Source: Asparagopsis taxiformis
Taxonomy: Eukaryota; Rhodophyta; Florideophyceae; Bonnemaisoniales; Bonnemaisoniaceae
Assembly (NCBI GenBank): GCA_030407315.1
Contig: JALQPE010001020.1
Location: 1-64,000, forward strand
Reading direction: 5' to 3'
DNA: 64,000 nucleotides
Position 1 is the stretch's first letter. Each line of letters begins with the position of its first letter. Made by a program: the position numbers and the translations under genes. The notes under the pieces are model-generated. The model was not told where the DNA came from. It did no database searches and worked only from the letters and a program-made list of their open reading frames with translations. Shown piece after piece: positions 115-63,377 of this stretch.

Positions 115-1341
115 TCACCCGCTGAGTAGTGCGAACGCTCCCGCAGGCCCAGGATCCTCGCCCGAGGTGCAGTAGAACGTCGCGGTAGCTCGCTCTCCCC
201 CGTACGGAGTGTCTCCGGCGAGAGAGATGCGAATCGCCATGTGGAGTGAGGAAAAGAGTGTCCTCACGGAGGCATAGTGAAACTGGAACACATGGCGTGG
301 CTGCTTGTAGCCTCTACCCGAAAGATGCGATAGCGCGGGGATTTCGGGGAACGCTTCGATAGCCTCGTCGATGAGCTGGTCGATGGTCTTGTATTGGGTC
401 TCGCTGATCGGGACCGGGTAGTTGATGCCGGTCGGGATGCCCAGCGCGTCGCGCTGCTCCTGCGACAGGAAGAAGTCGGCGCTCGCGAGGAGCTGCATCT
501 GCATCGTGCTGTTGAACGCGATGTCCTTCGAGAACTGAATCTCGCTCTTCTCGAGGATGAGCTTGTAGCCGGGCAGCGGCGGGAGAACGAAGCCGCTCGA
601 GCCAGCGCGGCTGTAGCTCGCGACGATGGCGGCACCCGGTGACGGGTCGTGGAGAACGACCTGCCCGAGCGCGTAGTCGACGCAGTAGTCGCCGCCGTTC
701 TCCCCGAAGGGCCCATCCTCGGTCAGCTCCACGCCATCGCGAGTGACGACCACCTTGTAGCCGTGCTGCTCCGTGCCGTTCTGCGCGGCGAAAATCTTCT
801 GGTCCTCCACCAAGCCCTCTTCGTCGAAGACCTTGCCGTTGTGCATGTCGACCCATACCTGCGGGCCCCCGGGAGCCACCCACTTCACGCCGTCGCCGTA
901 GACGTCGCGCAGGGCGATGTCGCTCTGGCGCTCGCTCTCGGAGTACCACGTGGTGCGGTCGCAGAAGTTATGGGTAGCGTAAATGACCTCGCGCCCCATG
1001 CGGCCCGAGATGGTGACGACGCCCGCACCGTCCGCCTGCGTACTCTGAAGAGCGACGATGTTCGGCGGCGGCTGTACCGCCTCGCCCGTGTGCGCACCCA
1101 CGAGTCCCGTGTACGGGGGCGGGTCGGCCTCGTTGCCCTGGAGGATGGTCTCCTGGTCGGCGGGCAGGTCTTCCTTGAAGGTGAGCGTGACCGTCGACCC
1201 CGCCTTCGTCAGCGACGCGACAGCCTTCGTGATGCCCGGCGCGCTGGCGATGTCGAGGAGGAACCGATTCGCGTCGTACCCATTCGGCTGGGCAAGCTGC
1301 GAGCCGAACTGAGTTTCATCCCATTGATAGACGGTAGCCAT
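115..1341 (-). CDS. Virion structural protein, tail region (unknown)
   Basis: A 408-residue protein, no family recognised. The start is taken at MATVYQW because AGGGTG precedes that ATG and it falls just after the previous stop; an upstream ATG nine residues earlier has no good ribosome site. The sequence is beta-rich with many Gly, Val and Thr, no signal peptide and no transmembrane segment. It contains a repeat-like stretch DYALGQVVLHDPSPGAAIVA typical of jelly-roll or Ig-like virion modules, and a more helical middle (SQEQRDALGIPTG). It sits directly downstream of two fibre-like genes, so a tail-tip, baseplate or fibre-associated role is likely. Confidence 0.55.
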   Translation of the reverse strand: MATVYQWDETQFGSQLAQPNGYDANRFLLDIASAPGITKAVASLTKAGSTVTLTFKEDLPADQETILQGNEADPPPYTGLVGAHTGEAVQPPPNIVALQSTQADGAGVVTISGRMGREVIYATHNFCDRTTWYSESERQSDIALRDVYGDGVKWVAPGGPQVWVDMHNGKVFDEEGLVEDQKIFAAQNGTEQHGYKVVVTRDGVELTEDGPFGENGGDYCVDYALGQVVLHDPSPGAAIVASYSRAGSSGFVLPPLPGYKLILEKSEIQFSKDIAFNSTMQMQLLASADFFLSQEQRDALGIPTGINYPVPISETQYKTIDQLIDEAIEAFPEIPALSHLSGRGYKQPRHVFQFHYASVRTLFSSLHMAIRISLAGDTPYGGERATATFYCTSGEDPGPAGAFALLSG

Positions 1342-1342
1342 A

Positions 1343-3178
1343 TTATCGCACCCTGTGGAACTCAAACTGCACGTCGGTGATGGTCACCGTGCCTTGGTCC
1401 CGCACGTTGTACTGCACCGCGAGCGTCTTCGCCGCGCCAGTCAGGTTGAAGAAGTACTCGCCGCTCACGTTGATGATGTTCTGCACGTCCTGCGGCTCGT
1501 GCGTGAAGCGACGACTCTTCACCTCGGTGCCGCCGTCGACGAGCGTCGCCTGCCCGTCGGTCGACGTCGCGTCCATCGACATCCGGGCCGACCACTTCAG
1601 CACGTAGCGGCCGTTGAGCCCTGCCGGAGTCGTGAACGACGTGCCTACTGTGCTTGGGGTCGTCGTCGAGTTGGTGAACGGGCCAGGGAAGAGAATGTCT
1701 TGGTGGTCGAGCCCGTAGACGTTGGTCGCTTGGATCTCGGCCACCCCTCCGCCGGCATCCTGGGCGCTGAGGCCCGTGCCGAAGTTGAGGGCCGAGAACG
1801 GGCCGTTCGGCACGCTCACGCCGTCATCCTGTGCGGCAATCGAAGCGGAGCCCGCGGGGCCAGGGTCGCCCTTGGGCCCCTTCAAGCTCAGCACGATCAG
1901 CGCCCCGCCGATCGTGGACATCACGAAGTTGTTGTCCTCGCGCTGCCCTTCGATAGTGATAAGGTCGTTCGCGGCGAAGTTCTGGAACGTGAACGCAGCA
2001 AACGTGTTTTCGCTATCGTTCAGGTTTCGAGCGTAATAGCCGCTGAGCATTCCGCTGAGCTGCGCGCCGTTCACTGCGAGGCGGCCGCGGCCCGAGGTTC
2101 GGTTGTTGCCCGAGGTCTGGTTCACGCCGAAGAAGCCGAGCACGAGGTAGGCGCCTGCGCTGTTCACGCGGATGCCGTTCGCCTCGACGGTCAGCTCCCC
2201 GCCTGCGCCCGTGAAGAGCTGGGTCAGCCCGAGAGGCGCGAACGTCGACAGGTTGAGCACCTGCCCGCCCGTGATGAAACCACTGGCAGCGATTTCAGAT
2301 AGCATGTGACGGCGGGCCGAGATCTCGAGGCGCTCGTCTCCGCCGTCGCTCTGCTCGGTGATCGTGATGCCGCTGCCCGCGAGGAGCTTCCCGAGGAGGA
2401 AGCCCGGCGTGGTGTCGTTCGCGCTGACGCGGACGTCCTTGTCGTCCACCTCGGCTCCGGCCTCGATGCCGTCGAGCTTGGCCCCGTCGGCACCGACGTC
2501 GCGCCCGTCGACAGTACCCCCGACGATGATGTTGTCGGTGACCTCGAGGTCATTCGGAGAGAATGAGGTCGTTGCCCTGGAACCGCGCGAGCGTGTTCCG
2601 CAGCACCTTGCCCGTCGTGCCGTCGAAGACGGGCACCCCGCCGTCCTGCGAACCTGCGGGCCGACGACGTCTCCGGAGCCAATGGGCCGGACCACCCAGG
2701 CGAAACCGTCCCAGATCCACTGGGAACCGTCGTCGGTCTGGATGGCTTCGTCGCCCTCCTGCGGAGTGAGGGCGAGCCGCGCAGCCGCGTCGGCGACGAC
2801 GAAGACCTCAGGAAGGGCAACCGCCGGGATCTGGGCTGCGGGGATCTTGCCGCCGCCGTCGAGCGTGGCGATGCCCTGCGCGCTGAGTGCGGCGAGGAGG
2901 TCAGCGAGGACGCTGGTGGGCGTCGTCTGCTCGTTGGCGGCTTCCTCAGCGGGGTCAGGGACGCCGGTGTGCGCGAGGACGGTGGAGGTCAGGGTGGCAG
3001 GCTCGCCGCCGCTCGCAGGCGGAGAGAACTCGATGTCCACCTCGCCTGCGGCACCCGCGCCCGTGCGTACGCGAAAGACGCTGGGGGCGCGGCCGATCGC
3101 GGCCTCTGCCTCCGTGTAGAGGGTCGATGCATCGACGGCGCCGTTGGCCGTCTGAGTTGCGATATCAAAAGTAGCCAC
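1343..3178 (-). CDS. Tail fibre-like protein with short collagen-like stretch
   Basis: About 611 residues, starting with GTG inside a TAGTG overlap with the upstream fibre gene. The N-terminal half has fibre-type repeats (ARLALTPQEGDEAIQTDDGS, and the GTVDGRDV/DGAKLDGIEAGA pattern seen in many phage fibres). The middle has a short Gly-X-Y run, GPKGDPGPAGS. The C-terminus is a beta-rich domain that resembles C1q/TNF-like knobs. Between about 2560 and 2655 the frame is wrong: the neighbouring frame reads DGGVPVFDGTTGKVLRNTLA, so two compensating single-base errors probably lie at these points. Host recognition is the likely role. Confidence 0.7.
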   Translation of the reverse strand: MATFDIATQTANGAVDASTLYTEAEAAIGRAPSVFRVRTGAGAAGEVDIEFSPPASGGEPATLTSTVLAHTGVPDPAEEAANEQTTPTSVLADLLAALSAQGIATLDGGGKIPAAQIPAVALPEVFVVADAAARLALTPQEGDEAIQTDDGSQWIWDGFAWVVRPIGSGDVVGPQVRRTAGCPSSTARRARCCGTRSRGSRATTSFSPNDLEVTDNIIVGGTVDGRDVGADGAKLDGIEAGAEVDDKDVRVSANDTTPGFLLGKLLAGSGITITEQSDGGDERLEISARRHMLSEIAASGFITGGQVLNLSTFAPLGLTQLFTGAGGELTVEANGIRVNSAGAYLVLGFFGVNQTSGNNRTSGRGRLAVNGAQLSGMLSGYYARNLNDSENTFAAFTFQNFAANDLITIEGQREDNNFVMSTIGGALIVLSLKGPKGDPGPAGSASIAAQDDGVSVPNGPFSALNFGTGLSAQDAGGGVAEIQATNVYGLDHQDILFPGPFTNSTTTPSTVGTSFTTPAGLNGRYVLKWSARMSMDATSTDGQATLVDGGTEVKSRRFTHEPQDVQNIINVSGEYFFNLTGAAKTLAVQYNVRDQGTVTITDVQFEFHRVR

Positions 3179-4344
3179 TAGCCGACCCTCGTGACTTCAA
3201 TGGTGGCTTCCCAGATGGACGCTTCGACAGGGGCGTCGTCGGTGCGCCACTCGAGAACCCAGGTGAAGTTCCCCGCCGCGAGCACCTCGAAGCGCTTGCG
3301 GTGGGCGTACATGCGCTGCGTCGTACCCGTCGGGTCGCCGCCCGCGCTGTCCTTCGGCTCCTGCTTGTGCAGCTCGCCGAGCTGGATGCCGTCTGAAGCA
3401 AGCGCGCCTCGAAGTCGTCGCCCGTCCCGTCGAGGTTCCAGCCGTAGCCCCAGTCGATGCGGTAGGTACCTCCCTCGAGGGCGACGGGGCCGAGCGTGAC
3501 CTTCTGGTCGAAGGTCTCGGTGACGTTCGTGTCGATGGCGAGATCTTGCGCGAAGAAGTACTCCCGCGCGTGCGGCTGCACGAGGTCGAGGTACTCCTGG
3601 TCCGGCCCCGAAATGAAGCCGGGCGTACCGGGCACCCCGGCGGCCGCGAGGGCATGCAGGTTGCCGCCCGGGAGGCTCCCGTGCTCGTGCACGTGGTCCG
3701 CACGAGCGAGGGAGCTACTCGTGCCTTCCGCGTTGCCGCTGTCGGTGATCGCGACCGGAGCGGCGGTGTCGATGTCGTGCTTGTGGTCCTCGCGTGCGTA
3801 GAGCGCGCTGACGCCCGCGGCCGCCGCGGACTTGTTCACGTTCACCGGGGCGCCGCCGGGCTGTGCGAAGGCGGCGTGATGCCGACGATCGTGCCTCCGG
3901 AGCGCACGAGGTACTCGGTGTCGGCGATGCCGCCCACCACGAGCGTTGTCGGGCCTCCGGTCTCGCGGATGCGGGTGATGGCCTCGAGCACGAAGCCATT
4001 CGCATCGAGGGTCGGGTAGCCGAGGGCCACGCCTGCTCGCTGCGAAGCTGGTACTGCGTGTGGGGGTCGCCCACCGTCAGGTTGAGCAGCGCGTTGTGGT
4101 CGATCGTGCCGGGAGCCACGACTGCGTTGAGCGGCTGCCAGGTCGCGCCGTCCCATCGGTACAGCTCGTCGGTATCAAGCTGATACACGATCTCGTTGAG
4201 CGTCGGCGTCAGGGCGAGCCGCGCTGCTGCATTGGCGACGCGCGGCGGTAGCAGAATGCCGTTGTTCGCGCGGTCGAAGTCGTTGATCCCGACGAGCGTG
4301 CGATTCGACGAGTCGTTCAAATAGACTATCGCAACACTGCTCAT
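3178..4344 (-). CDS. Tail fibre-like protein (frame broken twice)
   Basis: Reads from MSSVAIVYL at 4344 to a TAG at 3180-3178, about 388 residues once two frame changes (about 4035 and 3860-3840) and a third near 3400 are allowed for. Fibre hallmarks include DHNALLNLTVGDPHTQY, AREDHKHDIDTAA and ARADHVHEHGS; H/D-rich DPHTQY and DHxH repeats are common in phage fibre shafts. The phrase ARLALTP recurs in the next gene, so the two share a module. The C-terminal frame ends FTWVLEWRTDD...VTRVG, only visible after correcting the last break. Starts by ATGA overlap with the preceding gene. Confidence 0.65.
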
Positions 4345-4798: not shown

Positions 4799-5359
4799 CT
4801 ACGCCTCCGCCGCTTCTGGGGTCTCCTCTGCCTCGACGTCCTCTGCCTTGGCCTCGTCGCGCTCACGACGGCGCTCTGCGAGGCTCTTCCGCCCTCCCCG
4901 GGGCTTCCGGTCGTCGGGGTCGTCCCCTGCCTCTTCGGCCTCCTTGCGAGCCGCTGCGGCTTGAAGAATCTGCTGCGAGCGCGCGACGGCCGCCTTGTGG
5001 TGGTTCGCGACCAGCTCGAGCGACTCACGCACCGCAGCCGCCTTGCCCTCAGCAACGCGCTCGAGCTGCGCCGACTTCATCCGGAGGTTCAGGAGCCCTT
5101 CGGACGCGAGGGTGAGGTAGCGCTTCAAGAGCGACGCGACCTGAAGCGCCTCGAGGCCGTCGAGCTTCCCCTCCTCGAGGTCTTTGTCGACGTGGGCATG
5201 CAGCTTCAGGACGTTGTCCGAACCCTGCTTGAGAGCCCCCTGCCCGCCCTTGTGCTGCTGCACCTCGGCTTCGGCCTTCTCAAGCTGGGAGTCGAGCTTC
5301 TCCCCGATGTCGCCGGTCACCTCGGACCGACCGAGCCAGTGCTGAAACGAATCGCTCAT
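4799..5359 (-). CDS. Coiled-coil protein with charged C-terminal tail
   Basis: A 186-residue protein that is almost wholly helical: heptad-rich from about residue 15 to 145 (LDSQLEKAEAEVQQH, LERVAEGKAAAVRESLELV), followed by a basic patch KPRGGRKSLAERRRERDE and a Glu/Ala-rich acidic end. No membrane segment or enzyme motif. It lies between two structural genes with two- and six-base spacers, so it is probably a virion, chaperone or assembly protein. The KPRGGRKSL patch is a weak relative of the basic RSLDD tag seen elsewhere in this genome. Confidence 0.5.
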   Translation of the reverse strand: MSDSFQHWLGRSEVTGDIGEKLDSQLEKAEAEVQQHKGGQGALKQGSDNVLKLHAHVDKDLEEGKLDGLEALQVASLLKRYLTLASEGLLNLRMKSAQLERVAEGKAAAVRESLELVANHHKAAVARSQQILQAAAARKEAEEAGDDPDDRKPRGGRKSLAERRRERDEAKAEDVEAEETPEAAEA

Positions 5360-5365
5360 CGACTA

Positions 5366-6961
5366 TCACTGGCCGAAGACAACCACGGTGAGTTGGTCGG
5401 GGTTGTTGCCCACGCCGCGGAGGTTGAAGGTGAACTGGAGGTCGCCGTCGGCCGGAGTGCCGCCCGGGTTCACGTCCTCGAGGCCGATCGTCGTGCTGTT
5501 CCGAAGCAGCTCGCCGTTCAGGTAGACGAAGACGTCGGTGAGGAACGACACCGCGTCGAAAGGCGCGAGGTCCACGTCCGTGTTGGCGTGCGGGGTGCCC
5601 GGCCCGTTGACGTCGGTACCCGAAGTCACGTTCGACGTCAGCGTCGCCTGGACGCGCGTGCGGGTGCCGCCCGCGGCCGCGAGCGCGTACGTCGCGTTGA
5701 TGCCTTCCATGAGCGACACCTCGCCGCCGAAGTTGGTCTCCCACGTCGACCAGTCGGTGGCCTGCTCGGAGAGCTTGATGCCGTCGACCTGCGCCCACGA
5801 GACGGGCTGGTTGCCGTCGTCGAGGAACAGCTCCCCGGTGCCGTTCACGCGGAGGTCGCCCGCGGTGCTCTCGATCACGCCGTCGGTGACGCCGACCGCG
5901 ATGGGGCGCGTGCCGCCGCTGTTGAGGGTCGCGCCGTTCGCGAAGTCGTTGACCACCGCGTCGACGTCGAAGAGGTCCGTGTCCGGAGAGACCTCCACCT
6001 CGCTCGTGCCGCCCGCACTGCCCTCGATGATCCGGAAGAGCAGGGCTTCGGCGTCGTCGCGCACCTGCCACTCGAGGCCGGCGCCCTCGAGGTCGAGGAT
6101 CGCGTTGGACGTCACGTCGACGGGGGTCGCGCCCTGGTTGTCGTAGGCGACTTGGCGCGTGACCGTGGTGCCGCCGGGCACGTCGATGATGGCGCCGCGG
6201 AGGAAGTCCGCTTCGGTGAGATCCTCGAGGCCGACGCGCTCGCGGAAGCAGTAGTTGATGCTCTGCCCCTCGATGTCCGAGTTCGGCACCGCCTCGAGGT
6301 CGTCGCCCGCGGCGTTCACGCGCACGAACGAGAGCTGCACGCGGTCGGGCGTGGTGTCGGTGATGGTGAAGCCGTCGGCCGCGTTCTCGCTCTGGAGGAG
6401 CGCGTAGACCTGGCGGCCCGCCGAGAGGATGGGGTCGCGCGTCGCACCATCGACGATGACCGCGAGGTTGAGCGGCGAGATGGCGTTCGGCCCGGCCACC
6501 TCGGCAAGGCTGTGCGCCCCGAACCCGCCCGAGTTGTCGGCGACGACGGTGCCCAGCGTCGTCACGGCGCCCACGGCCGCGGTCAGGTTCGACGGCAGCT
6601 CGCCCGCGCCGAGGATCACGAAGTTCTGCGCGGCGGGGACGGTGACATCCGCGAGGAGGTGCACATCCCGCAGCACACGCTTGCGCTCGAGGTCGTAGAG
6701 GTCGCTGTTGAGGTTGTCGATGCCGCGCTGCGCAGAGCCCTCGCCCGGGAACTGCGGCGGCACGAGGATGTCGTCGTACCAGTTGCCGGTCTGGAGCTTG
6801 AGGTGCTGGTGCACGACCGAACGCAGGTTGTTCAGGTCATCCGCGATCGACGCTGCCCCCGTCTCCATTGCGGCGGCGAGGGCGGTGTTGTCGACGAACC
6901 CGATGAGGGTGTCGCGAGTGGATGCAATCTGTGCGTCTTGGCGGATGAACGTGCGGGCCAT
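5366..6961 (-). CDS. Large virion structural/fibre protein
   Basis: A 531-residue protein starting MARTFIRQDAQI, a common opening of phage fibre or decoration proteins. A short helical part (residues 20-110, containing DDLNNLRSVVHQHLKLQTGNW split over two helices) is followed by a long beta-rich body with Ser/Thr/Gly repeats and a terminal domain that includes DVFVYLNGELLRNSTT. The word YLNG with a following R/L is shared with the small neighbour at 6973-7281 (LYLNGVRQDEG), a signature of phage fibre terminal modules. Receptor binding or tail-tip assembly is likely. Confidence 0.6.
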   Translation of the reverse strand: MARTFIRQDAQIASTRDTLIGFVDNTALAAAMETGAASIADDLNNLRSVVHQHLKLQTGNWYDDILVPPQFPGEGSAQRGIDNLNSDLYDLERKRVLRDVHLLADVTVPAAQNFVILGAGELPSNLTAAVGAVTTLGTVVADNSGGFGAHSLAEVAGPNAISPLNLAVIVDGATRDPILSAGRQVYALLQSENAADGFTITDTTPDRVQLSFVRVNAAGDDLEAVPNSDIEGQSINYCFRERVGLEDLTEADFLRGAIIDVPGGTTVTRQVAYDNQGATPVDVTSNAILDLEGAGLEWQVRDDAEALLFRIIEGSAGGTSEVEVSPDTDLFDVDAVVNDFANGATLNSGGTRPIAVGVTDGVIESTAGDLRVNGTGELFLDDGNQPVSWAQVDGIKLSEQATDWSTWETNFGGEVSLMEGINATYALAAAGGTRTRVQATLTSNVTSGTDVNGPGTPHANTDVDLAPFDAVSFLTDVFVYLNGELLRNSTTIGLEDVNPGGTPADGDLQFTFNLRGVGNNPDQLTVVVFGQ

Positions 6962-7284: not shown

Positions 7285-7689
7285 CTACCCCCCAGGAATG
7301 CCACGGGCCCTTGCCTCGGTGGACACGCGGGTGATGAAGAGGGTGGCAGAGCCCGTCGTGAGGATCGCGCCGAGGCGGTCCGAGTGGTCCTGTAGAGCGT
7401 GGTACTCGACCGCGATGACACTCTGCCGCGATAGTGGAACTCGTCGAAGGCCGGCTTCCGCCGTCCCGTCGAGCGACTCCCCTTCCTCCCAGGGCCCGAC
7501 GTGGACCCAGCAGATGGCGGTGTCGCTCGACGGATTGACGAGCTGGACGAGATAACGGCCCGGACGCAGCGGGCCGATCTCGTCGGGGAGCTGATCGAAG
7601 TCAGTGCCAACGGGCAGCTCCCAAGTTTCCTCGATAGCCGCTTCGTAGAAGGCGATGTCATGGTCGCCACGGTGCGCCCCCGCAGACAT
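7285..7689 (-). CDS. Small head/tail accessory protein, paralogue A
   Basis: A 134-residue protein of unknown function. Its core LRPGRYLVQLVNPSSDTAICW matches LTPGRYALRIVDFNGATDVW in the next upstream gene (7700-8088), and the two also share a terminal beta strand (LFITRV versus IQITKV). They therefore look like tandem duplicates of one small beta-sandwich virion protein. Located between the HeH protein behind the capsid gene and the fibre genes; a decoration or neck role is plausible but not shown. Confidence 0.5.
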   Translation of the reverse strand: MSAGAHRGDHDIAFYEAAIEETWELPVGTDFDQLPDEIGPLRPGRYLVQLVNPSSDTAICWVHVGPWEEGESLDGTAEAGLRRVPLSRQSVIAVEYHALQDHSDRLGAILTTGSATLFITRVSTEARARGIPGG

Positions 7690-10043: not shown

Positions 10044-10056
10044 GTTTGACTATCCT
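10044..10056 (-). promoter_or_regulatory. GATAG box between ribosome site and capsid start codon
   Basis: On the transcribed strand the bases just ahead of the capsid ATG read GAAAGGATAGTCAAACATG. The ribosome site (AAAGGA) runs directly into a perfect GATAGYNNAW box (GATAGTCAAA), so a protein bound here would cover the initiation region of the most strongly expressed gene, and in RNA form the box lies in the initiation region. Confidence 0.5.
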
Positions 10057-12008: not shown

Positions 12009-12230
12009 TCAAGTCTTCGGCACAACGAGCTTCGGACCCGCGGCCTTCTTCAGGGTTTGACTATCGCCGTCTAGCACGAGCGGTAGTAGTACTCCCTTCC
12101 CGCAAGAACCGCAGTTGATCTCGACTCCGCCGCTCTTGTGAAGCACCAGGATCTTGGTCCTGGCCTTGAGCTTGGCGCCGTCCCTCGACTTCCGGAACAC
12201 GGGCTTGCCGCAGTGTGGGCAGTCGTTCAT
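12009..12230 (-). CDS. Com-like zinc-ribbon protein
   Basis: A 73-residue protein with two Cys pairs, CPHCGK at residues 4-9 and CGSCGKG near residue 46, around a basic stretch (KLKARTKILVLHKSGGVEIN). This is the layout of short zinc ribbons such as the Mu Com translational activator. No Mom homologue is visible in the window, so the family link is structural only. Starts inside the end of the InPase gene (ATGA overlap). Confidence 0.5.
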   Translation of the reverse strand: MNDCPHCGKPVFRKSRDGAKLKARTKILVLHKSGGVEINCGSCGKGVLLPLVLDGDSQTLKKAAGPKLVVPKT

Positions 12231-13429
12231 CGGGGCACCATGAGGCGTAGGGCTCGCCGCTCGAGCACGGCCCACCCGGCGTCGTCGGAGTAGCTCGTGA
12301 TGGCGATCCGCAGAGCGCGCGGGCACTCCTCGATCGGACAGACCTCGAGGTCGTCTCTGCCGGCGCACGCGGCGAAGTGGCGTGCGCTTTCCTCGTCGGC
12401 GAAGACGGCGACCACGCGTGCGCGGGCATGGAGGCGCGCGTCTCCGCGTGAGCCCGGGCCCCCGATGTGTTTCTGCTCGCCGTTGGGCTTCCATCGGTGC
12501 TGGACGCTGGCCCAACCTGTTGGCCCGACGTCGAGATGCCACGGCGCCTTTCGGAGCGGCCCGTCCTTCTTGCCGTGCTCGAGCCACTTCTTGAAGCGGC
12601 TCATCGGCCACGCGACGATGCTGCCGAGCATCTGGGGGCCGTGGTGGTCGTAGTGCTTGAGGTACGCGCGTCGCGCCTGAGTTTCGCTATCGAAGCCGAG
12701 CATCACCTTGTGCTCGTCGAAGCGGGACTTGTTCTTCATCTGACGCTGGTTGATGACGAAGACTTTTTCGCTATCGCGATTCGGCCCGATGTAGACGTCC
12801 ACTTCGTCGCCGTCGGCACCCTCGTAGCCGATGATGAAGCCGTACGGGTGAACCATGACGGTCTCGCCGTGGGTCTGGGTCTTCACGTCGTACCAGCGGC
12901 GGCGCGAGCCCTTGGGGTTCTCGATGGCGATGCGGAGTCCCTGCATCTCGAGGTAGCCGCCGAGCGGGTAGACCTCGACCTCGTACCCCTCGCCCATCAC
13001 TCGGGCTTTGAAGAACGATGCCTGCGACTCCCGCGCGCGGGCCTGGGCGCTGGCGCGCTTCCGTGCCTCTGCGCGGCGCTCGCGGTCCTTCACGCGCTTC
13101 ATGGCGCGTTCCTTCTCGCCATCGGTCGGGAGGGGCTGCCGCGCCCCTCTGCGGGCCACCTCGCCGCGATTCAGCGGGAAGCCGCCCTTCGCGTTGCAGG
13201 TCTTGCAGGGGAACGCCACGGCGTCGCTCCCGCCACCGATCTTCGACTGCTCGTGCAGCGTGTGTCCGAGCCCCGCACAACGCTTGCAGCCCGCGATCTT
13301 CGCGGGCGGGTTGTGGGGCTTGTCGTTCCAGGGGATTCGGTGCTGCGGGTCTGCGTACTTCCCCCCTCGAGGCCCGATGTAGGGGCCCGCCTTCTTTAGG
13401 CTATCGAGACTTCGGATACGCGCTTTCAT
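12227..13429 (-). CDS. Head-region protein with inorganic pyrophosphatase-like (InPase) domain
   Basis: A 400-residue polyvalent-type protein. Residues 1-10 carry a tag-like RIRSLDSL, then KAGPYIGPRGGKYADP, a phrase repeated in the giant protein at 19967-23809. Residues 45-85 hold a DnaJ-like zinc module (CKRCAGLG and CKTCNAKG). Around residues 195-270 lies GYEGADGDEVDVYIGPNRDS and MLGFDSETQARRAYLKHY, the signature of the InPase domain described in phage and plasmid polyvalent proteins. Such proteins are thought to travel with DNA or act at the head vertex. ATGA overlap with the MuF-like gene. Confidence 0.7.
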   Translation of the reverse strand: MKARIRSLDSLKKAGPYIGPRGGKYADPQHRIPWNDKPHNPPAKIAGCKRCAGLGHTLHEQSKIGGGSDAVAFPCKTCNAKGGFPLNRGEVARRGARQPLPTDGEKERAMKRVKDRERRAEARKRASAQARARESQASFFKARVMGEGYEVEVYPLGGYLEMQGLRIAIENPKGSRRRWYDVKTQTHGETVMVHPYGFIIGYEGADGDEVDVYIGPNRDSEKVFVINQRQMKNKSRFDEHKVMLGFDSETQARRAYLKHYDHHGPQMLGSIVAWPMSRFKKWLEHGKKDGPLRKAPWHLDVGPTGWASVQHRWKPNGEQKHIGGPGSRGDARLHARARVVAVFADEESARHFAACAGRDDLEVCPIEECPRALRIAITSYSDDAGWAVLERRALRLMVPR

Positions 13430-15317
13430 CGCTTCTTCTCGAAGATGGCACGGTAGCTACGGTGAACGAAGGCGAACTGCCGGGGTGGTTGAGGAGGAGC
13501 CGCGCTTTCTCGAACAGGTACATCCGGGTCACCTCGGCCGCGTTCTCGATGGGGAGCTTCTTGGCGTAGTCGCTCACCCAGCCTTCGTCACGGGAGAGCG
13601 CCCAGAGCTTGTCGTGCCACTTCCGGACCGCGTCCGCACCCCCGAGCTGCCGCATCAGGTAGACGTTGAGCGTGTGGCCGATCTCGTGCCGGAGCACTCG
13701 GGGCAGTCGCTCGATGGGAAGCGTCTGGTTCAGGCGGATCTCGTTCGCCGTCCAGTACGCGAAGTCGTGCTCCTCGAGGGGGTTCTGCGCGCGCGGCGAG
13801 TCGGTGGTGATGAGCGTGATGCCCACGTCCTTGTGGAAGATCTCGGGTGGCGCTTCGGCGAGCACGCGTTCGATGACCTGGCGCTTCAGCGGGTCGGCGA
13901 CGCGCACCACGAGGGAGTCGACGGGCACGAACTTCCCGTGCGTCATGTGGGGCTTCTGCTGCGCCTCGCCCTTCGCCATCTCGTCCCAGCTCGCCTCGAG
14001 GCGGTCGCCCTTCTTGAGCATGATCTCGGGCACGAGGTCGTTGTCGTCGTCGAACGCCCAGCCGTCGGGCACCTCGATGAGGTCGCACCCGCACCACGGG
14101 TGCACGGGGCCCACGGTGATCTTCCAGTCCTTGCGCTTCTTCCCGACGTTGGTCCCGTTCTCTTGCAGCTCGGACAGCTTGTAGATGCGGGGCTTGGAAC
14201 CGATACCCGCTGTCAGGTGTAGCCGAATGCAGTCGGGGCAGGCGTCGGGCGTGGTGAGCTTCGCAACGCGGATGTCCTCAGCATCGCGGCCCTTCGTCAT
14301 CGCGCGGGCGGTGCCCTCCTGCATCGCGAACTGCTTCTCGGTCGCGGCGAGGCGCTGCATGTCTCGCGACCAGTCCTGCGTGGCGTGCCCGATCTGACTC
14401 GCGAGCTTCCGCCACGTCTGGCGCTTGTCGATGTTGTTCTCCAGCTCGCGACGGATAGTCCCCATGTACCGGCGCCGCTGCTCGGCATCGGCATCGCGGA
14501 TGGTGGTGGCCGTCGCCGTTGCGAGGCGGTCACCCATCCCGCGCACGTGCTCGCCTGCGTTGTAGCGAGCGAACGCCATCGCCTGCCGCTCGACGGGGGA
14601 GAGCTTCGGACGCGTGCGCTCGAGGTGCTTCACGAACTTGTCGGCGCCCATGTCCGTGACGACCTTCCGCTGCCGGGCATCGCCGAGGTGCGCGCCGTAC
14701 TGGTAGGCGAGGTCGGCGATGCGCATGGCATCCGGCGGCCGCTCGCCGGGGCCCGGCTGAAAGACGTACGCGAGGTCGCTCGGGAGGATGCCGGTGTCGA
14801 TGAGTCGGCGAACCTCTTCGGGCGGGATGCTGTCGGGTCCGAAGACACCCACCGCGAATGCGGCGTGGTAGTCGCGGATGATCTGCTTGATGGTCTCGAG
14901 CTGCGCGGGCGTGAGCAGCGAGAACTTCTTCTCGATCATGAAGCGGCGCGCGCTGAATGGGCTATCGCTATCGTCCTCGCCGCTGGCGAACGCCACCATG
15001 TCGTCGTCGGGCCACTCGACGTCGGCGGCGAAGCCGTACATGCCCTCGGCATCGTCGTCGCTCTTCTTGAGCTTCGTGCCAGGCACTATCTCCTTTGAGA
15101 TGTAGCGCAACAGCTCCTTGAAGAGCTTGTCGACGGTCTTCTCGTACGCCTCGAGGGTGCGCTTCGAGATCTGGTCCATCGCCTTGTGGAAGATGAACGT
15201 GTCGTGCGTTCGGCGCCGCGCCTTGCGGAGGTCGGATTCCACCGCGCCCACGAGGCGCAAGTGCCCGTGGTCGTGATCGTGGTCGTGACCGCAGTCATGG
15301 CCGTGATCGTGCGCCAT
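13426..15317 (-). CDS. MuF-like minor head protein with HEXXH metallopeptidase domain
   Basis: About 630 residues. It begins with an extreme His/Asp stretch (MAHDHGHDCGHDHDHDHGH), then a helical portal-contacting body, then the MuF zinc signature CPDCIRLHLTAG with HPWCGCDLIEV near residues 360-420. The C-terminal 200 residues are a zincin: RVLRHEIGHTLNVYLM supplies HEXXH. The frame breaks at a CCCC run near 13484; corrected, the end reads RSYRAIFEKKR with TGA overlapping the next ATG. MuF proteins bind the portal and often carry effector domains at the C-terminus. The peptidase could act in head maturation or in the host after ejection. Confidence 0.75.
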
Positions 15318-33469: not shown

Positions 33470-33476
33470 TCGACAC

Positions 33477-37596: not shown

Positions 37597-37606
37597 TTGC
37601 GATAGT

Positions 37607-50285: not shown

Positions 50286-50320
50286 TGGGGTTCACCTCCT
50301 CGGAGGCTATACCCGATAGC

Positions 50321-50602
50321 CTAACCCGCGGGGAAGATGCTCGAGCGCTTTCGACGGCGGCGGCGTGGGCGCTCGAGGCTGTCGGACTGCCGCTCGAGCA
50401 CGTCGCACACGAGCTGCACGCACAGCTCGCGGACATCCTCGGGGCGAAGGATGGTAGCCGTCTCGGGGACGCGCTCCTCCACGAGCGCCACGAGCTGGGG
50501 GACGCACTCCACCAGCGCGGCGCGCTCAGGCGTCGCATCCGCGTCGAGCGCGGCGAGTAGACGACGATGGACGTCGCCAAGCGAGGCAACGGTGTGATCC
50601 AT
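50321..50602 (-). CDS. Small helical protein with poly-Arg C-terminus
   Basis: A 93-residue protein, start MDHTVASLGDVHRRLLAAL; a GATAG box (complement of 50607-50611) lies directly ahead of the ATG. Helical, ending LERPRRRRRKRSSIFPAG, a strongly basic tail with an RSS-I element like the recurrent tag. It may bind DNA or a phage partner. Confidence 0.45.
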   Translation of the reverse strand: MDHTVASLGDVHRRLLAALDADATPERAALVECVPQLVALVEERVPETATILRPEDVRELCVQLVCDVLERQSDSLERPRRRRRKRSSIFPAG

Positions 50603-51312: not shown

Positions 51313-51525
51313 TCAGTCTCCTATCAGGTTCGCGCGGGGACCCTGCTCGGGGAGTCTGACGAAGACGCCTCCGATCTTCGTTTGGCCGATGGGCACGACG
51401 TTGATCAGCAGTAGGCCGTCGTCGTAGACCTCGTTGGCCTTCTTCAGCAGGGATGCGAACCCAGCTTCGGTAGCATCTTCCACCCAGCCCCGCACGGGCA
51501 GTGCGCCCCTAGTCTTCTTCGCCAT
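51313..51525 (-). CDS. Small unknown protein
   Basis: A 70-residue protein, start MAKKTRGALPVRGWVED with AGGAGG six bases ahead (an ATG two codons earlier is too close to the ribosome site). Beta/alpha (FASLLKKANEVYDDGLLLIN). Overlaps the end of the terminase-like gene. No family recognised. Confidence 0.45.
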   Translation of the reverse strand: MAKKTRGALPVRGWVEDATEAGFASLLKKANEVYDDGLLLINVVPIGQTKIGGVFVRLPEQGPRANLIGD

Positions 51526-52380
51526 CGTCATCCTCCTCTGCCTGGTAGTCGTCGTGATCGATATCGATCGTGTCGGCATCGAGCAACTCGGGCTGTCGTC
51601 GCAAAAGGACAGTCTTAGCCATCTGGCGCAGATCCTCCTTTGAGAACGAAGCCTTGGCCCCCACCGGGTCGATGGTGACAGACTGCCGGACCTGATCGCC
51701 GCCGAGGTTCTCGCTGCGTGACGTAGCCTCGCCGCGGAGCAGCATGAGGATCTTCTGCATCTCGAGGAGCATCCGCACGTGCTCGTGCATCTTGCCCATC
51801 TTGAGAGGCATCTTGGGGAGGCCGGCCAGCTCGTGGTCTTCGGCGTAGCGCAGCACCTCTTTCGTCACGGGGTCGCGCATCGGCCGCATGTACTCGAGCA
51901 GCGGCTCCATATCGTCGCGGAGCTGGGCATACGCCTCGAAGCGCTCGACCGTGACGCGGTGCTTGAGCTTCTCGAGGGTGAACTCCTCGACGTCGCGCCA
52001 CCACTTCTCACGGCGGGCCGTCCATCGGTCCTCGGTGGCCCAGCGGCGGAACGTCTTCACGCTGACGGCGCGGTTGTAGATGCGGTCCTCGCGCGTGTAC
52101 CACCAGTCGACGGATCGTGACTCGGGGTCGGTGATGTACTCAACGCCCGCCTGCTGGCGCAGCTCGTCGGAACGGACGCGGAAGCTGTCCTCGCTCTTCG
52201 TGGGTCGGCGCGTGAGCTTCTTGCTGGCCTTCTTTCGCGAGACTGCCTCAGCGGCGTCGTCGATGCTGCGCGGCTTCTTGCGCTTCTTCGCGGGTGCCTT
52301 CTTGGCCGTCTTCTTGACGGTCTTTTTGGTAGTCTTTTTCGCAGCCTTCTTTGCTGACGCTTGAACTTTTTGGTAGCCAT
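51509..52380 (-). CDS. Probable small terminase with H1-like tail and RSIDDA tag
   Basis: About 290 residues from ATG at 52380; a one-base loss in the AAAAA run near 52365 puts the rest in a second frame. The first 40 residues are a Lys/Ala/Thr tail (KKAAKKTTKKTVKKTAKKAP) like eukaryotic H1, then KKRKKPRSIDDAAEA. The body has KTFRRWATEDRWTARREKWW, the helix-turn-helix shape of small-terminase and phage HTH proteins, followed by an oligomerisation-type coiled coil (LEYMRPMRDPVTKEVLRYAE). Placed far from terL, so this is tentative; it could also be a DNA-binding regulator. Confidence 0.5.
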
Positions 52381-52704
52381 TTAGTCTTCGCCCCGAAGGC
52401 GCGCGATGCGCTCCGCCCACTCTTCGTCGTTGTCCTCGAGGGGATTCGCACCCTCCCCACTCAGGCGGGCGGCCACGTCGTCGAGGATCGCGGAGATGCG
52501 TTCTAGGTGATCGAGATAGTGGAGACGCATAGGCAAGTCCACGCGCATCCGGCCATCCTGCCACGTGATGGTGATGCTGTCGGGAGGAATCGATAGCGTA
52601 TGGCCCAGCTCTTCGCGAATCTGCTCGCGCGCCTGCTCGCGCGTGAGAGGTGATTCGGTCAGCGCCTCGAGGGAGGCGGCGAGGTCGCGCAGCTCCTCTT
52701 CCAC
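52381..52704 (-). CDS. Small helical protein (unknown)
   Basis: A 107-residue protein from GTG at 52704. Acidic helical N-terminus (EEELRDLAASLEALTES), a small beta part (SITITWQDGRMRVDLPMRLH) and an acidic end. Its TAA abuts the ATG of the next gene. No family recognised. Confidence 0.45.
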   Translation of the reverse strand: MEEELRDLAASLEALTESPLTREQAREQIREELGHTLSIPPDSITITWQDGRMRVDLPMRLHYLDHLERISAILDDVAARLSGEGANPLEDNDEEWAERIARLRGED

Positions 52705-53329: not shown

Positions 53330-53729
53330 GGCTCATCCTGTCTGCGGCGTCGAGGCGCGCTTCCATCTCGTCGCTCACGGTCGCGAGCTTCAAGAATCGT
53401 ACGCCTTTCCTGATAGTCAAACACGGTGCGATTCCGTTCTGCTTCAGCAGCTTCAGGAACTTCGCGATTTCTTCAGAGGTAGCGTCGGGGGGAACTTCGA
53501 CGACGTAGGCATCCGACAGCATGCCCATCAGGTAGGTGGGGCTATCGAACGGCGACGGTATACGGCGAATCTGCGTGGCGTCGAAGAACTCGTGCAGCTC
53601 GTACCAGTGCTCGCCCTCGCGCCGAACCGTGTCGCCGCGGCGGAACTTGGCCAGCTCTTCCTCGAGGCGGGCGATGCGCCGAACGAGCTGAACGCGAGTC
53701 GGGCCCTTCTTTTTCTTCTTCTTGCTCAC
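53326..53729 (-). CDS. Small basic-acidic coiled-coil protein (end inferred)
   Basis: About 133 residues from GTG at 53729 (SKKKKKKGPTRVQLV), overlapping the SbcC stop. It has a coiled coil (VRRIARLEEELAKFRRGD), then FDATQIRRIPSPFDSPTYLMG and a helical C-terminus with VRFLKLATVSDEMEARLDAA. As given, the frame stays open into ruvC; a single-base change would give the usual GTGA junction with ruvC. No family recognised. Confidence 0.45.
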
Positions 53730-55635: not shown

Positions 55636-56713
55636 CGGGTGCAGCACCTTCGCCTCGGGCAGCTCGGAGAGCACCGCGCGTCCGAGGGCGGTCAGATCCT
55701 CGGCGGGCATCGGCAGCTCGCCGCCGGCCTTGTCGGCTTCGGCCTCGAGGAGGTCGACGTAGGTGCCGATGGCTTCGTCGAGGGAGAGCGCGAACGTCGG
55801 GGCGCCGCCGTCCTCTTCTTCCTTCAGCGGCAGCGGGCGGACGTCCTCGGCGGGGAGAGCCTCGAGGAATGCTCGGAGGTCGTCGCCGCCGGCCTCATGG
55901 GGCGCGTGGTAGACCTCCACAATGTCCTGAGTTCTGATAGCCGAAATGTCGAAGGGCACGCCCATCGTCACGCGGTGGTGCTTCGGCATGTCGTCGAAGG
56001 GGATCCACGTCGGCTCGATGTTCTCCTGCGTGATGAGCGCCACACCCTTGGGCGGATCGTTCATCTCGCCGAAGGTCATCTGGAACGGCGAGCCGATGTA
56101 CCACGTACGGTCGCCGAGCTTCTGGCGCTTGTGGTAGTGGCCGCAGTAGCAGGCGCGGGCCTTCGCTTTGATTTGCGATAGCAGAACCCGCCCGGGCGCC
56201 ACATGCGCGTAGTTGGTGGTCGCACCTTCCACCTCGGCGTGCGCGAAGATGGTCCAGCCGGTGGCCCTTGAGGCTGGTGAACTGCTCCTGCTGCTCGGCC
56301 GGGTCCTCGCGCCACGGGATGAACGCGAGCTTCGACTCCGGCCACACGAGGCGCTCGGTTGCCACGAAGAGGTTCGGGAACGGGTCGAAGATGCGGACGC
56401 CGTGCAGCTTGCCGTCCATCGACACCTGGTCGTGGTTGCCCGGGATGAACACCGCCTCGATGCCGTCCTTGCGCCAACGGTCCAGCTCCTCGAGGAGCGG
56501 CACGACCTGCCGGACTGCCAGGACGCCGCGCGCATCCCAGAAGTCGCCGTTGAATACCACGCGCGCTTGATAGTGCTTCGCCAGCTCACGAACGCGGCGC
56601 AGCACCTCGAGCACGCGGTCGAGCGTGCGGGCGCTGAGGTGCGCGTCGGTGAACGAGATGAACCGCCACGGCGGGATCTCGATGTCGTCGAGGCTTCGTC
56701 CCTTCTTAGGCAT
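55636..56713 (-). CDS. Mre11/SbcD-like nuclease with N-terminal RSLDD tag
   Basis: About 359 residues, start MPKKGRSLDDIEIPPWRF (basic tag at the very N-terminus). Metallophosphoesterase motifs: FISFTDAHLSARTLDR (D-x-H), ARVVFNGDFWDARG (GDxxD), AVFIPGNHDQVSMDGK (GNHD), and after a frame break near 56265 ARACYCGHYHKRQKLGD (GHxH) with TWYIGSPFQMTFGE. The C-terminal part runs without a stop into SbcC (junction KV-LHP-MSTDVT). The pair would form the end-processing complex. Either a real fusion or a lost stop codon. Confidence 0.75.
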
Positions 56714-57104
56714 CTTGACTCCTGATAGTCCAAACGGTCGCTGCTCGGTTGCTGCGCGTGCGTCGCTTCATTCCGCTATCGCGAACGAGGCCACCTAGCA
56801 CGAGGTCACGGCGCCGAGCACTCGCCGTTTGGTGCCGCAGGTCGAGACCTGCTTCGATTTCATCGTCGGTCGCACCTTGCGGGCCGCGAGCTTGGATGAA
56901 GTCGTAGACCTTCCGCTTCATTTGCTTGAGGTCTTCTGGTGATAGTGATTTAGCCGCCGCCTTGGAAGTCGACGAACCAGAAACGTAGGGAGCCGTCGTG
57001 TTCTGCGACCGCACCCACTGCGCAATCGCTTCGATATCGACCCTGCGGGCCGGCACCTCGAGCCACAGCGTTCGTAGCTTCTGGACGACTTCCTCCTGCG
57101 TCAC
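56706..57104 (-). CDS. Winged-helix protein
   Basis: A 132-residue protein from GTG at 57104 by GTGA overlap with the RecA-like gene. The C-terminal 70 residues KRKVYDFIQARGPQGATDDE, AGLDLRHQTASARRRDLVLG and RRTRSNRAATVWTI match the phage winged-helix domain that ends in a Gly-rich wing and VW. The N-terminal part is a short helix pair. Possibly a recombination accessory or regulator. It overlaps the start of SbcD. Confidence 0.6.
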   Translation of the reverse strand: MTQEEVVQKLRTLWLEVPARRVDIEAIAQWVRSQNTTAPYVSGSSTSKAAAKSLSPEDLKQMKRKVYDFIQARGPQGATDDEIEAGLDLRHQTASARRRDLVLGGLVRDSGMKRRTRSNRAATVWTIRSQDA

Positions 57105-58318
57105 AGTTGGCCCTCGGCCATGTACTGCTCCGCCATCTTTTGATAGACCGCCGGACGCTCGCGGAGCACCTCGGCGAAACCCGATGTACTGGTGCTGAAA
57201 CGCCTGGTGCGTCCCGTCGGGGAGCATGAGCCACTGCCACGAGCCGCGCGTCTGAATCCATCGGTGCGCCTCGTCGACGCCCGCTGTCTTCCCCCACTGA
57301 TAGAGGGTGAACGCGTTGTGCAGCCCCGCACCGTAGATGAGCCCCAGCTCGGCGGGCGGCTGCGGTCGGTTGATGCGCGTCTTCTTGAGCTTCGCTTGGA
57401 TGACGTGGCCGACAGGCTTCTCGCTGATTTTGAGCGTGGCCTTTTTCGATAGCCAAAGTCGGAGGCTGGTGTAGTAGCGGACGCCGCTGCCGCCGTAGGT
57501 CTTGATGGACGCAAAGGGCCCGATGTCCTGGTAGAACTGATTCGCGAACACGAACGCAGCGCGGGCGTTGGCGATGCGCTGCGCGAGCCGCTTCAGGTTC
57601 ATCTTGATGGCCTTCGCCGCGCTGGCGACATGCTTGTCGTCCGCTGCGCCGTCGCGTTCCGCCTTCGTCGGAGTCCCGCCGAGGCTGTCCCAGATGATGA
57701 GCATCGGCGGCACGGTGTCGTCGCCCCTCTGCTTCTCGAGGGCGACCTTTCGGGCTTCCTGAATGGCGAGCACGCGATCGATGCCCGCGAACGCTTCCTC
57801 GACCGTCTCAGCCTTGTGGACGATGAGCTTCCCGAGGTCGACGCCCAGCGACGACGTGTACTTCGCGTCGCGCGCTTGCTCGGAGTCGATGAGGACGCAG
57901 ATCGCGCCGATGGACTGCGCGTAGGCGATGGACTGGTCGAGTAGCGTCGACTTCCCGACCGCTTCCCATGCAGCCACTTCGACGATCCGGCCTACGGGCC
58001 AGCCACCGCCGATGAGCCGGTCGACGGCGAGGGCGCCCGTGGGGATGAACTCCTCGACGCTGGAGACCCAGGCGAGCGGGTCCGAAAAGAACGCGAAGTC
58101 TTCGTCCTCCACGTCCTTCATGGCTCGCAGGTCTTTTAGATAGTCGTTTGCGGTAGGAACCTTGGCCTTGGTGTTCTTCTTCTTGGTGCGCCGCGGAGGG
58201 CGCGGAGCCTTCTTCGTGGCCGCCTTCTTGGCGGTCTTCTTCGTGGCCTTCTTGGCCGCGGGCTTCGTCTCTGCGGGCTCGATGTCGTCGAGGCTCCGCG
58301 CCTTCCGCTTACCTGCAT
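57101..58318 (-). CDS. RecA/UvsX-like recombinase with H1-like N-terminal tail
   Basis: About 405 residues. The first 45 (from ATG 58318, with a one-base frame correction near 58310) read KRKARSLDDIEPAE then PAAKKATKKTAKKAATKK, a basic tag plus H1-like tail. The core has VEVAAWEAVGKSTLLDQSIA (Walker A), ICVLIDSEQARDAKYTSSLG, PPMLIIWDSLGGTPTKAE (Walker B) and FVFANQFYQDIGPFASIKTY (L2 loop, QFYQ). The frame breaks again near 57185, giving the end VLRERPAVYQKMAEQYMAEG. It should form filaments for strand exchange in recombination-dependent replication. Confidence 0.8.
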
Positions 58319-60084: not shown

Positions 60085-60783
60085 TCAGAGTGCTCTGGGC
60101 GACTTCGCGCCCTTTGTCGGTTGCTCGGGTTCCATACCCGATAGCGTTTTCTGTGCGTTCTCGAACGCACCCGAAGCCGCCGCGATTGCGGCAGCCTCAG
60201 CAGCCATGGCTTGGTAGTCGCCGAGGCGCTCGCCTTCGGCGGCGAGCTTGTCTTCGTTCCTCGAGGTCGACTCGAAGCCGCCGACGCGCTGGCCCTGGGC
60301 CAGCATGTGCTCGCTCTTCATCTTGAACGACCACATGAGGTTGCGAACGAGTTTGGCTATCGCATTCCAGCGGTCGCCTGCGAACGCCATGTCCTCGTAG
60401 TCGGGATGGTTGCGGTAGTAGGTCTCGATCTCGGAAGCCGTCGGCCCCTGCTTCGCCGCGCGCTTCCCGCTGGCGGTCTTCTTCTCCGGGGTGTGCTGTG
60501 CGCACTCCTCGGCCATCTGTGCCTTCCAGCGACGGTAGCGGCCCTCGGCGCGGGCGGCTTCCCACTCGCACGCTGCCTCGAAGCGACCAATCTCGGCGTA
60601 GATGTTCGAGATGATCTGATCCTCGAGGGTGAGGTTGGCGACGTCGATCGCGAGCATCGCATGGACGTTCTCGTAGGCCAGAGTGATCGGTTGCCGGGAA
60701 GCGGGGTCCTCGGCTTGGATGGCCAGCCCGAATGTCTTGAACTGGCGCAGGATTTCCTTGGGTGCGATGTAGCGGCTCATCAT
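60085..60783 (-). CDS. UvsY-position recombination accessory protein with SPRAL tail
   Basis: A 232-residue helical protein, start MMSRYIAPKEILRQF. It has acidic and basic helices (EDQIISNIYAEIGRFEAACE, ASEIETYYRNHPDYEDMAFA, RNLMWSFKMKSEHMLAQGQ). Proteins of this composition sit between SSB and polymerase genes in many large phages and are thought to mediate RecA loading, but I see no hallmark. The end KGAKSPRAL is a weak tag relative. Confidence 0.45.
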   Translation of the reverse strand: MMSRYIAPKEILRQFKTFGLAIQAEDPASRQPITLAYENVHAMLAIDVANLTLEDQIISNIYAEIGRFEAACEWEAARAEGRYRRWKAQMAEECAQHTPEKKTASGKRAAKQGPTASEIETYYRNHPDYEDMAFAGDRWNAIAKLVRNLMWSFKMKSEHMLAQGQRVGGFESTSRNEDKLAAEGERLGDYQAMAAEAAAIAAASGAFENAQKTLSGMEPEQPTKGAKSPRAL

Positions 60784-60797: not shown

Positions 60798-60814
60798 TTT
60801 ACACGATAGTCAAA
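60798..60814 (+). promoter_or_regulatory. Intergenic GATAG box ahead of gene 60085
   Basis: CTTTACACGATAGTCAAACTC on plus, 22 bases ahead of the ATG at 60783 and four bases from the polymerase stop. Fifth member of the TTACACGATAG class. Confidence 0.5.
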
Positions 60815-63110: not shown

Positions 63111-63143
63111 CGGTACCTCCTCCAAGGCGGCGGAGCTGCTGTT

Positions 63144-63356
63144 TCAACTCCTCGATAGTCGAAAGTAAACGACCCCCGCAGCAACCATGCGGGGGTCGTA
63201 GGCTCGCGCCATGACGAACCATCGGCCGAGGTCCCAGTGATAGAACCACGCCTCGAACACGGGGTAGCCGTCTTCAAGGCAGAAGGCCGGTTCTTGGTAG
63301 CGAATCTCTTCGCGGGTTCGGTCAGGATCGCTGACGTTGAGGATCATCCCCAGCAT
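63144..63356 (-). CDS. Small unknown protein
   Basis: A 70-residue protein, start MLGMILNVSDPDRTREEI. Beta-rich and aromatic (YQEPAFCLEDGYPVFEAWFY, HWDLGRWFVMARAYDPRM). No family recognised. It lies just ahead of the polymerase start. Confidence 0.45.
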   Translation of the reverse strand: MLGMILNVSDPDRTREEIRYQEPAFCLEDGYPVFEAWFYHWDLGRWFVMARAYDPRMVAAGVVYFRLSRS

Positions 63357-63377
63357 GTCGCGATCGTACCCGATAGC

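Follow-up and report, generated by a model that had tools for sequence, protein, structure and literature searches.

The new counts indicate that an apparent tailed-phage contig in the assembly of the red alga Asparagopsis taxiformis carries dozens of copies of a ten-base box, GATAGYNNAW, far beyond what its proteins and codon usage would produce. The stretch in question (the window) comprises bases 1-64000 of the 65,285-bp contig JALQPE010001020.1, one of 3,156 contigs in the 141-Mb assembly GCA_030407315.1. Specifically, the window holds 53 boxes (35 on the plus strand, 18 on the minus strand) and the whole contig 55 (37 and 18), against a mean of 2.0 (0.75 and 1.2, with maxima of 4 and 5) in 300 runs of a synonymous-codon shuffle. 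The excess is thereby confirmed as real. An earlier note on this DNA had counted about fifty boxes among roughly 120 GATAG sites, which agrees with the exact figures (89 GATAG on the plus strand and 34 on the minus); position 329, with which that note opened its series, is a GATAG lacking the YNNAW tail, and the first full box stands at 2017. A tentative reading, held with rather less than even confidence, is that the boxes are scattered targets of a sequence-specific DNA-binding protein, encoded by the phage, that would silence the genome in a stoperator-like manner, largely indifferent to their orientation.

Judging by its protein matches, the contig is a fragment of a tailed phage, because it encodes relatives of a portal, a terminase, a major capsid protein, RecA, DNA polymerase A and an SbcCD-like protein; the phage was presumably sequenced together with a larger organism. 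A simple gene caller places all 83 called genes on the minus strand (a slightly different version puts 1 of 82 on the plus strand; the 83-gene set is used throughout). End repeats were looked for on the contig and none were found, and a nucleotide comparison of its first 25 kb with the phage collection yields no match. Known phages match the portal at less than 60% identity, and a portal relative is encoded at 28 viral-contig loci. The relatives discussed here are 14 of 15 portal-related records (G001-G014, with G014 taken minus its last 50 bases and G015 left out), the other portal loci being counted only for the window's own box. This box is found five times, against 0.85 expected, at L036, the locus of G006.

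Excess and bipartite form of the box

Further null models leave similarly few boxes. Dinucleotide and whole-codon shuffles of the contig each give 0.6 on the plus strand and 0.9 on the minus strand, and Markov chains of order 3 and order 4 give 2.3 + 1.2 (about 3.6 in sum) and 4.0 + 1.8 (5.8). CTATC/GATAG heads the offset statistics among the 5-mers tested, with CCTCG/CGAGG ranking just above it under a second null. Across 225,624 combinations of word, offset and base, a T four bases before CTATC takes the first rank, closely followed by an A that lies 18 bases beyond the first C of that word. When all 6- and 7-mers are ranked by synonymous shuffle, furthermore, the box comes first in this contig, with a score of 15.1.

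Read in gene sense, the core is WTNNRCTATC; a G or A comes next, and then an A-rich stretch. An A stands at position +18 in 74 of the contig's 127 CTATC sites (24.7 expected, z 11.3), and G15 (z 4.0) and T17 (z 4.2) are also raised; these bases occupy positions of an inverted GATAG half-site 10 bp downstream. A18 is commoner in sites without WTNNR (47/72) than in those with it (27/55), as if the two compensated for each other. Full CTATC-N10-GATAG dyads occur twice in the contig and three times in G006, where two of them share an intergenic gap at a distance of 46 bp, and no dyads are found at other spacings from 0 to 29. The site in the contig is bipartite, with a strong half and an often weak, degenerate inverted half 10 bp away, and because of this a bound protein would probably contact both. 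Apart from G006, the relatives profiled showed no inverted partner, and neighbouring boxes keep no strongly preferred distance in most contigs.

Placement along the genome

The boxes occupy both coding and non-coding DNA, as the earlier note had it, but not evenly: 24 of 55 touch non-coding DNA where 6.5 would be expected, and 31 lie wholly inside genes. The same note's view that they are directional survives in part. While 37 of 55 follow the sense of transcription and 18 oppose it (binomial p 0.014), orientation runs in blocks (16 runs against 25.2 expected, z -2.9), nine of the ten boxes below 15 kb are on the minus strand, and several relatives are balanced. Among 32 in-gene placements in the contig, 19 are sense and 13 antisense. 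Eight sense cores precede called starts by 28-34 nt: six fall within gaps 31-38 nt long, a seventh sits in an upstream gene that overlaps the next, and the eighth lies beyond the window, beside the contig end; five antisense cores lie 5-9 nt before called starts.

An extended word, CTATCGNGTA, is found ten times in sense and never in antisense. Eight of the ten copies precede a called start by 22-35 nt, and the extended copies may represent a promoter or leader element. Its strict orientation would suit promoters of a phage sigma factor, and a Sigma70_r2 domain passes the cut-off in G002 and falls below it in the locus L081, with similar frames recognized by eye in G001 and in the tail of the contig. 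As an account of the boxes at large this is improbable, however, since it fits the extended subset only: most boxes sit in genes and many are antisense (sense to antisense in genes 19/13 in the contig, 20/36 in G002, 23/20 in G005).

Boxes also occur, as had been claimed, in all three of the leaders between 31.5 and 33.5 kb that carry promoter-like TTGACM-N17-TAYTSA sequences (Table 1), and at leader promoter 1 the inverted partner (CTATC-N10-GATAG) extends to the -10. This pattern appears nowhere else in the contig, and TTGACN-N15-19-TANNNT not at all. Between promoter and start codon, each leader also shows by eye an inverted repeat (31534-31548, CGGGG..CCCCG; 31880-31894, CGGCG..CGCCG; 33455-33469, CGGGG..CCCCG), one pair being changed on both sides.

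Table 1 Boxes, leader promoter regions and a candidate DNA-binding protein in the window
Feature	Position	Strand	Basis or context
Box	7430..7439	+	pattern count
Box	17136..17145	+	pattern count
Box	17869..17878	+	pattern count
Box	18893..18902	+	pattern count
Box	22675..22684	+	pattern count
Box	23322..23331	+	pattern count
Box	27425..27434	+	pattern count
Box	29123..29132	+	pattern count
Box, extended form CTATCGTGTA in gene sense	30338..30347	+	upstream of start codon 30311
Box	31572..31581	+	in spacer, leader promoter 1
Box	31598..31607	+	upstream of leader promoter 1
Box	31944..31953	+	upstream of leader promoter 2
Box	32430..32439	+	pattern count
Box	33493..33502	+	in spacer, leader promoter 3
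Box	33519..33528	+	upstream of leader promoter 3
Box	35009..35018	+	pattern count
Box	36079..36088	+	pattern count
Box	36669..36678	+	upstream of start codon 36641
Box, extended form	37309..37318	+	upstream of start codon 37283
Box	37540..37549	+	pattern count
Box	37601..37610	+	adjoins start codon 37596
Box	39328..39337	+	pattern count
Box	40738..40747	+	pattern count
Box, extended form	41909..41918	+	upstream of start codon 41879
Box, extended form	47826..47835	+	upstream of start codon 47795, within overlapping upstream gene
Box	50315..50324	+	upstream of start codon 50285
Box	52592..52601	+	pattern count
Box	53412..53421	+	pattern count
Box	55936..55945	+	pattern count
Box	56177..56186	+	pattern count
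Box	56724..56733	+	pattern count
Box	57448..57457	+	pattern count
Box, extended form	60805..60814	+	upstream of start codon 60780
Box	63154..63163	+	pattern count
Box, CTATCGGGTA form	63372..63381	+	no called start within 80 nt
Box (first full box)	2008..2017	-	pattern count
Box	4321..4330	-	pattern count
Box	5358..5367	-	abuts start codon 5359
Box	10045..10054	-	directly upstream of start codon 10043
Box	12056..12065	-	pattern count
Box	12682..12691	-	pattern count
Box	12766..12775	-	pattern count
Box	13396..13405	-	pattern count
Box	14957..14966	-	pattern count
Box	23791..23800	-	just within gene starting at 23809
Box	29135..29144	-	pattern count
Box	39522..39531	-	directly upstream of start codon 39519
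Box	42142..42151	-	abuts start codon 42142
Box	43651..43660	-	abuts start codon 43651
Box	44825..44834	-	just within gene starting at 44840
Box	46889..46898	-	pattern count
Box	56771..56780	-	pattern count
Box	60352..60361	-	pattern count
Leader promoter 1 region, TTGACC-N17-TATTGA	31547..31615	-	two boxes: just upstream of -35; in spacer
Leader promoter 2 region, TTGACC-N17-TATTGA	31893..31961	-	box upstream of -35; degenerate box (CTACC) in spacer
Leader promoter 3 region, TTGACA-N17-TACTCA	33468..33536	-	two boxes
303-aa protein, candidate DNA-binding	51509..52420	-	lysine-rich start; likely helix-turn-helix and long helix

Boxes in related phages

The comparison with relatives that the earlier note called for shows diverged boxes. 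Each relative was tested for a word of its own, given here as observed copies over the mean of 100 shuffles; the patterns were picked after viewing k-mer tables, and z-scores are uncorrected for this choice. The own words are AGGATAAT in G001 (23/3.1), G002 (26/3.4) and G004 (20/2.9), GGATAAT in G007 (15/2.8) and G008 (9/2.7), TNGGATA in G003 (77/16), CGGATAC[CT] in G005 (45/4.6), GGATAC[CT] in G013 (23/2.7), GATAGCC in G006 (19/5.1), TNGATAA in G010 (133/47), CTCGATA in G011 (26/4.6) and CTTAGYA in G014 (38/6.2). Counts exceed all 100 shuffles in these 12 of 14 relatives and stay within the shuffle range for GGATAA in G012 (14/8.1, maximum 16) and GATAT in G009 (31/20, maximum 32). G001, G002, G004, G007, G008 and G012 form one lineage of 77.6-99.9% nucleotide identity (the G001 lineage), and one word is common to G005 and G013; the 12 relatives therefore amount to about seven independent cases. 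Most own words have a common TATC/GATA core with differing flanks, G014 being the exception.

The ranking of all 6- and 7-mers, in which no word is chosen beforehand, places the box first in G003, G005, G010, G011, G013 and G014 and second in G006. Measured against the best words of three unrelated control phages (7.0, 10.0 and 9.6), box scores are higher in the window's contig, G003 (12.5), G005 (17.3) and G010 (16.2), narrowly higher in G011 (10.8) and G014 (11.2), and inside the control range in G006 (5.7) and G013 (8.0). A scan with DNA polymerase A alignments led to five loci, two of which were examined: GGATA is in excess in L081 (53 against 23), and no GATA box was found in L082. A further 34 viral-contig loci matching the 15-mer TTGACTATCGTGTAA, with one match each, were taken as chance; none passed the box-enrichment threshold, the nearest being L088 with 8 against 2.5. 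The DnaA box, a TTATCCACA-type sequence, was also set aside as an identity for these words: its second half is missing, and only 4 of the 80 TTATCC sites in G002 are followed by an A.

In one lineage, boxes keep their positions better than control words do. When G001 is aligned with G002 (77.6% identity), GGATAA is preserved at 27 of 47 sites, whereas 25 permuted words are preserved at 159 of 481 (Fisher p 0.001); with start-proximal sites excluded and all 59 permuted words used, the figures are 23 of 43 for the box and 368 of 1121 for the controls (p 0.008). Three other comparisons give odds ratios of 2.5 to 2.9 and share genomes, hence are not independent, and G001 and G008 are too nearly identical to be informative. 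These data bear on the idea that the boxes are targets of a phage DNA methyltransferase, or mere word bias with no bound regulator. A Dam-like domain in the frame at 48762-49982 and an N6/N4 methylase in G010 would supply the enzyme, but methyltransferase sites need no enrichment, box positions are conserved in the G001 lineage, and shuffles that keep proteins and codon use give 2.0 boxes where 55 are found; the idea is quite unlikely. The frame at 48762-49982 itself also matches a matrixin-type peptidase, and is perhaps two fused genes or a frame error.

Around start codons, antisense cores peak at 1-10 nt upstream (6 in G001, 15 in G002, 13 in G004, 5 in G007 and 10 in G010), and sense cores at 21-40 nt number 3, 3, 2, 1 and 6 in the same phages. 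Without the start-proximal ones, 33 of 39 GGATAAT sites are left in G001 and 30 of 41 in G002. In-gene boxes favour the sense orientation in G003 (36:9) and G006 (14:2) and lean to antisense in G002 (20:36). The spacing of boxes is more even than random in G005 (coefficient of variation 0.75, p 0.005) and G010 (0.81, p below 0.001) and nearly so in the contig (0.80, p 0.056).

This regularity, together with the use of both orientations and the mostly in-gene boxes of several relatives, would also be expected if the boxes served a nucleoid, packaging or partition protein that organizes the phage genome and silences nothing, and the window, G001, G002, G010 and L081 have in common a conserved lysine-rich protein that probably contains a helix-turn-helix. 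The bias of the boxes towards non-coding DNA and start codons speaks against such a role, as do the clustered spacing in G002 and G003, the random spacing in G001 and the single ParB match among the 14 relatives (G001 only, the records possibly being fragments); we consider it somewhat unlikely.

Chi sites are short, dispersed, over-represented words that differ between bacteria, and the boxes, being lineage-dependent and present in both orientations, could likewise be recombination hotspots for a host or phage nuclease-helicase, differing by host. In 50 kb of phage P1, used as a control, the top word is CCACCAG/CTGGTGG, the core of E. coli Chi. A dyad with a degenerate half and a preference for non-coding DNA or start codons are, however, unexpected of Chi, and this explanation too has little probability in its favour.

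Two further features of the contig stand apart from the boxes. CTCGAG is over-represented (189 against 101 in shuffles), as is CCTCGAGG (66 against 27), and CTCGAG is avoided in most relatives: ten of the 14 lack it, among them G001, G002 and G005 (shuffles 33, 36 and 31), and it is present once in G003 (shuffle 20). The window also encodes a Cpn10-like co-chaperonin (44373-44840), with a homologue in G013 at 14724-15062.

Candidate proteins and known systems

The 303-aa protein of Table 1 is a candidate only for a DNA-binding protein. Its helix-turn-helix was recognized by eye and in a low-confidence model (pLDDT 59, pTM 0.31), and homologues occur in G001, G002, G010 and L081. Foldseek returned no match with E <= 0.001 in either library, and no useful PDB sequence match and no PHROG or Pfam family was found. 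The product of 33669-34622 was rejected as a binder common to the window and G006: the shared part is the N-terminal domain only, and the G006 counterpart looks by eye like a DNA cytosine methyltransferase. A basic motif resembling K(R/K)PRS(L/I)D is common to the otherwise different-looking proteins of 33669-34622, 42753-43040 and 51509-52420, C-terminal in two of them.

The contig ends before the stretch in which G001 and G002 encode a small, 66-aa Cro/YdaS-like protein, which falls below Pfam cut-offs and is divergently encoded with a box nearby. It was rejected as a universal binder, no homologue having been found in the contig, the rest of the assembly or the 20.6 kb of L081. In G001, G002, G004 and G007, many sigma70-like promoters carry by eye a TATACGG-N4-CCGTA palindrome in the spacer, a second repeated element and a likely operator of another repressor. 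The 66-aa protein more likely binds this palindrome than the box, because it has no homologue in the places named and the promoters of its lineage carry the palindrome.

Returning to dispersed silencing, the proposed protein would block transcription starts when bound at the leader promoters, and at short intergenic gaps, start codons and sites within genes it would hinder elongation or form a coat on the DNA. Several observations weigh against this proposal. The three leaders are near-copies of each other, the promoter pattern was derived from them, with its -10 form fitted to them, before the search, and a CTATC or GATAG turns up in 29% of non-coding 80-bp windows picked at random from this contig; boxes in 3/3 leaders are therefore weak, suggestive evidence. 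In G006 neither A18 nor WTNNR stands out. In the unchosen ranking the box is not among the six top words shown for the seven contigs besides this one, G003, G005, G006, G010, G011, G013 and G014, and in the six contigs of the G001 lineage other 6- and 7-mers outrank it. The antisense peak before starts in that lineage, where many cores read AAAGGATAATG, may partly reflect ribosome-binding sequence. In-gene sense and antisense boxes are near balance in G005 (23:20), G010 (52:42) and G011 (11:11). Non-coding sigma70-like promoters have a nearby box in only 3 of 27 cases (0/7 in G001, 2/8 in G002, 1/8 in G004, 0/4 in G007), which is at odds with a simple operator role in the G001 lineage; G006 has one such promoter, without a box, and the other relatives searched have none. 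Finally, no box-binding protein, repressor or integrase could be named (65 of 83 called genes, Pfam and/or PHROGs), and a tyrosine integrase was found in 0 of 9 and a serine recombinase in 0 of 14 relatives searched, the records possibly being fragments, so that lysogeny is unproven.

A wider proposal, which we regard as doubtful, is that an uncultivated group of tailed phages shares a genome-coating, orientation-indifferent silencer, in which one protein would bind dozens of bipartite TATC-core boxes, within genes as well as at promoters, with a specificity that changes from lineage to lineage. If true, this changing specificity would mean that every phage possesses an immunity or chromatin code of its own. 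Most sampled lineages have a genome-wide box of their own, with a density of about 0.4 to 3.5 copies per kilobase and in many cases no single orientation. The group would offer a natural series for the question of how specificity shifts jointly in a DNA-binding protein and its dozens of sites, as well as for that of sequence-specific chromatin, and one word per lineage would provide a computational handle on which phages share immunity.

Few phages are known to have dispersed repressor sites; among them are the cluster A mycobacteriophages, P1 and SPbeta. In the parts of the literature drawn on here, P1 has 22 dispersed, asymmetric C1 operators with a 17-bp consensus (PMC8546580), and SPbeta has SPBRE, a repeated 15-bp motif first found in silico in the promoter regions of ten named genes, where it is bound at many promoters by the master repressor MrpR, a protein of recombinase-like fold (PMC10516654). 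Because both precede the boxes described here, these are not a second case of dispersed sites, as the earlier note had proposed. The boxes share asymmetry and genome-wide dispersal with the C1 operators and computational detection of a repeated phage element with SPBRE. They differ in placement: the five C1 operators annotated in 50 of the 94.8 kb of P1 either overlap an annotated promoter or come to about 25 bp of one, and SPBRE is described from the promoters of ten genes, whereas the contig has dozens of sites, 31 of 55 wholly in genes. By eye, the box is also unrelated to the C1 consensus ATTGCTCTAATAAATTT given in PMC8546580. No published report of such boxes in other phages was found, judged by titles and abstracts, which is weak evidence of absence.

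The closest comparison proposed is with cluster A phages such as L5 and Bxb1, whose 20-30 asymmetric stoperators are described, in the sections of PMC6550527 and PMC9283540 used here, as oriented with transcription, situated in promoters and short intergenic spaces, and related but distinct in consensus among relatives; reversal of a stoperator abolishes repression (PMC9283540). The likeness proposed by the earlier note is supported by the excess of dozens of short genome-wide sites and by the divergence of the box among related phages, which parallels that of the stoperators (PMC6550527). As to placement, this contig has boxes in the leader promoters and sense boxes in six gaps of 31-38 nt, and in the G001 lineage 3 of 27 promoters have a box. 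The likeness does not extend to consistent orientation, at 37:18 in the contig and balanced in several relatives, or to a simple operator role in the G001 lineage. Cluster A phages have a cognate immunity repressor that binds its asymmetric site as a monomer, and they maintain the prophage by integrase or parABS. The box in the window, furthermore, has a different sequence and an inverted partner, and no repressor was found for it. Taken together, the boxes are not the cluster A system, and stoperators offer a reasonable working model of what they do.

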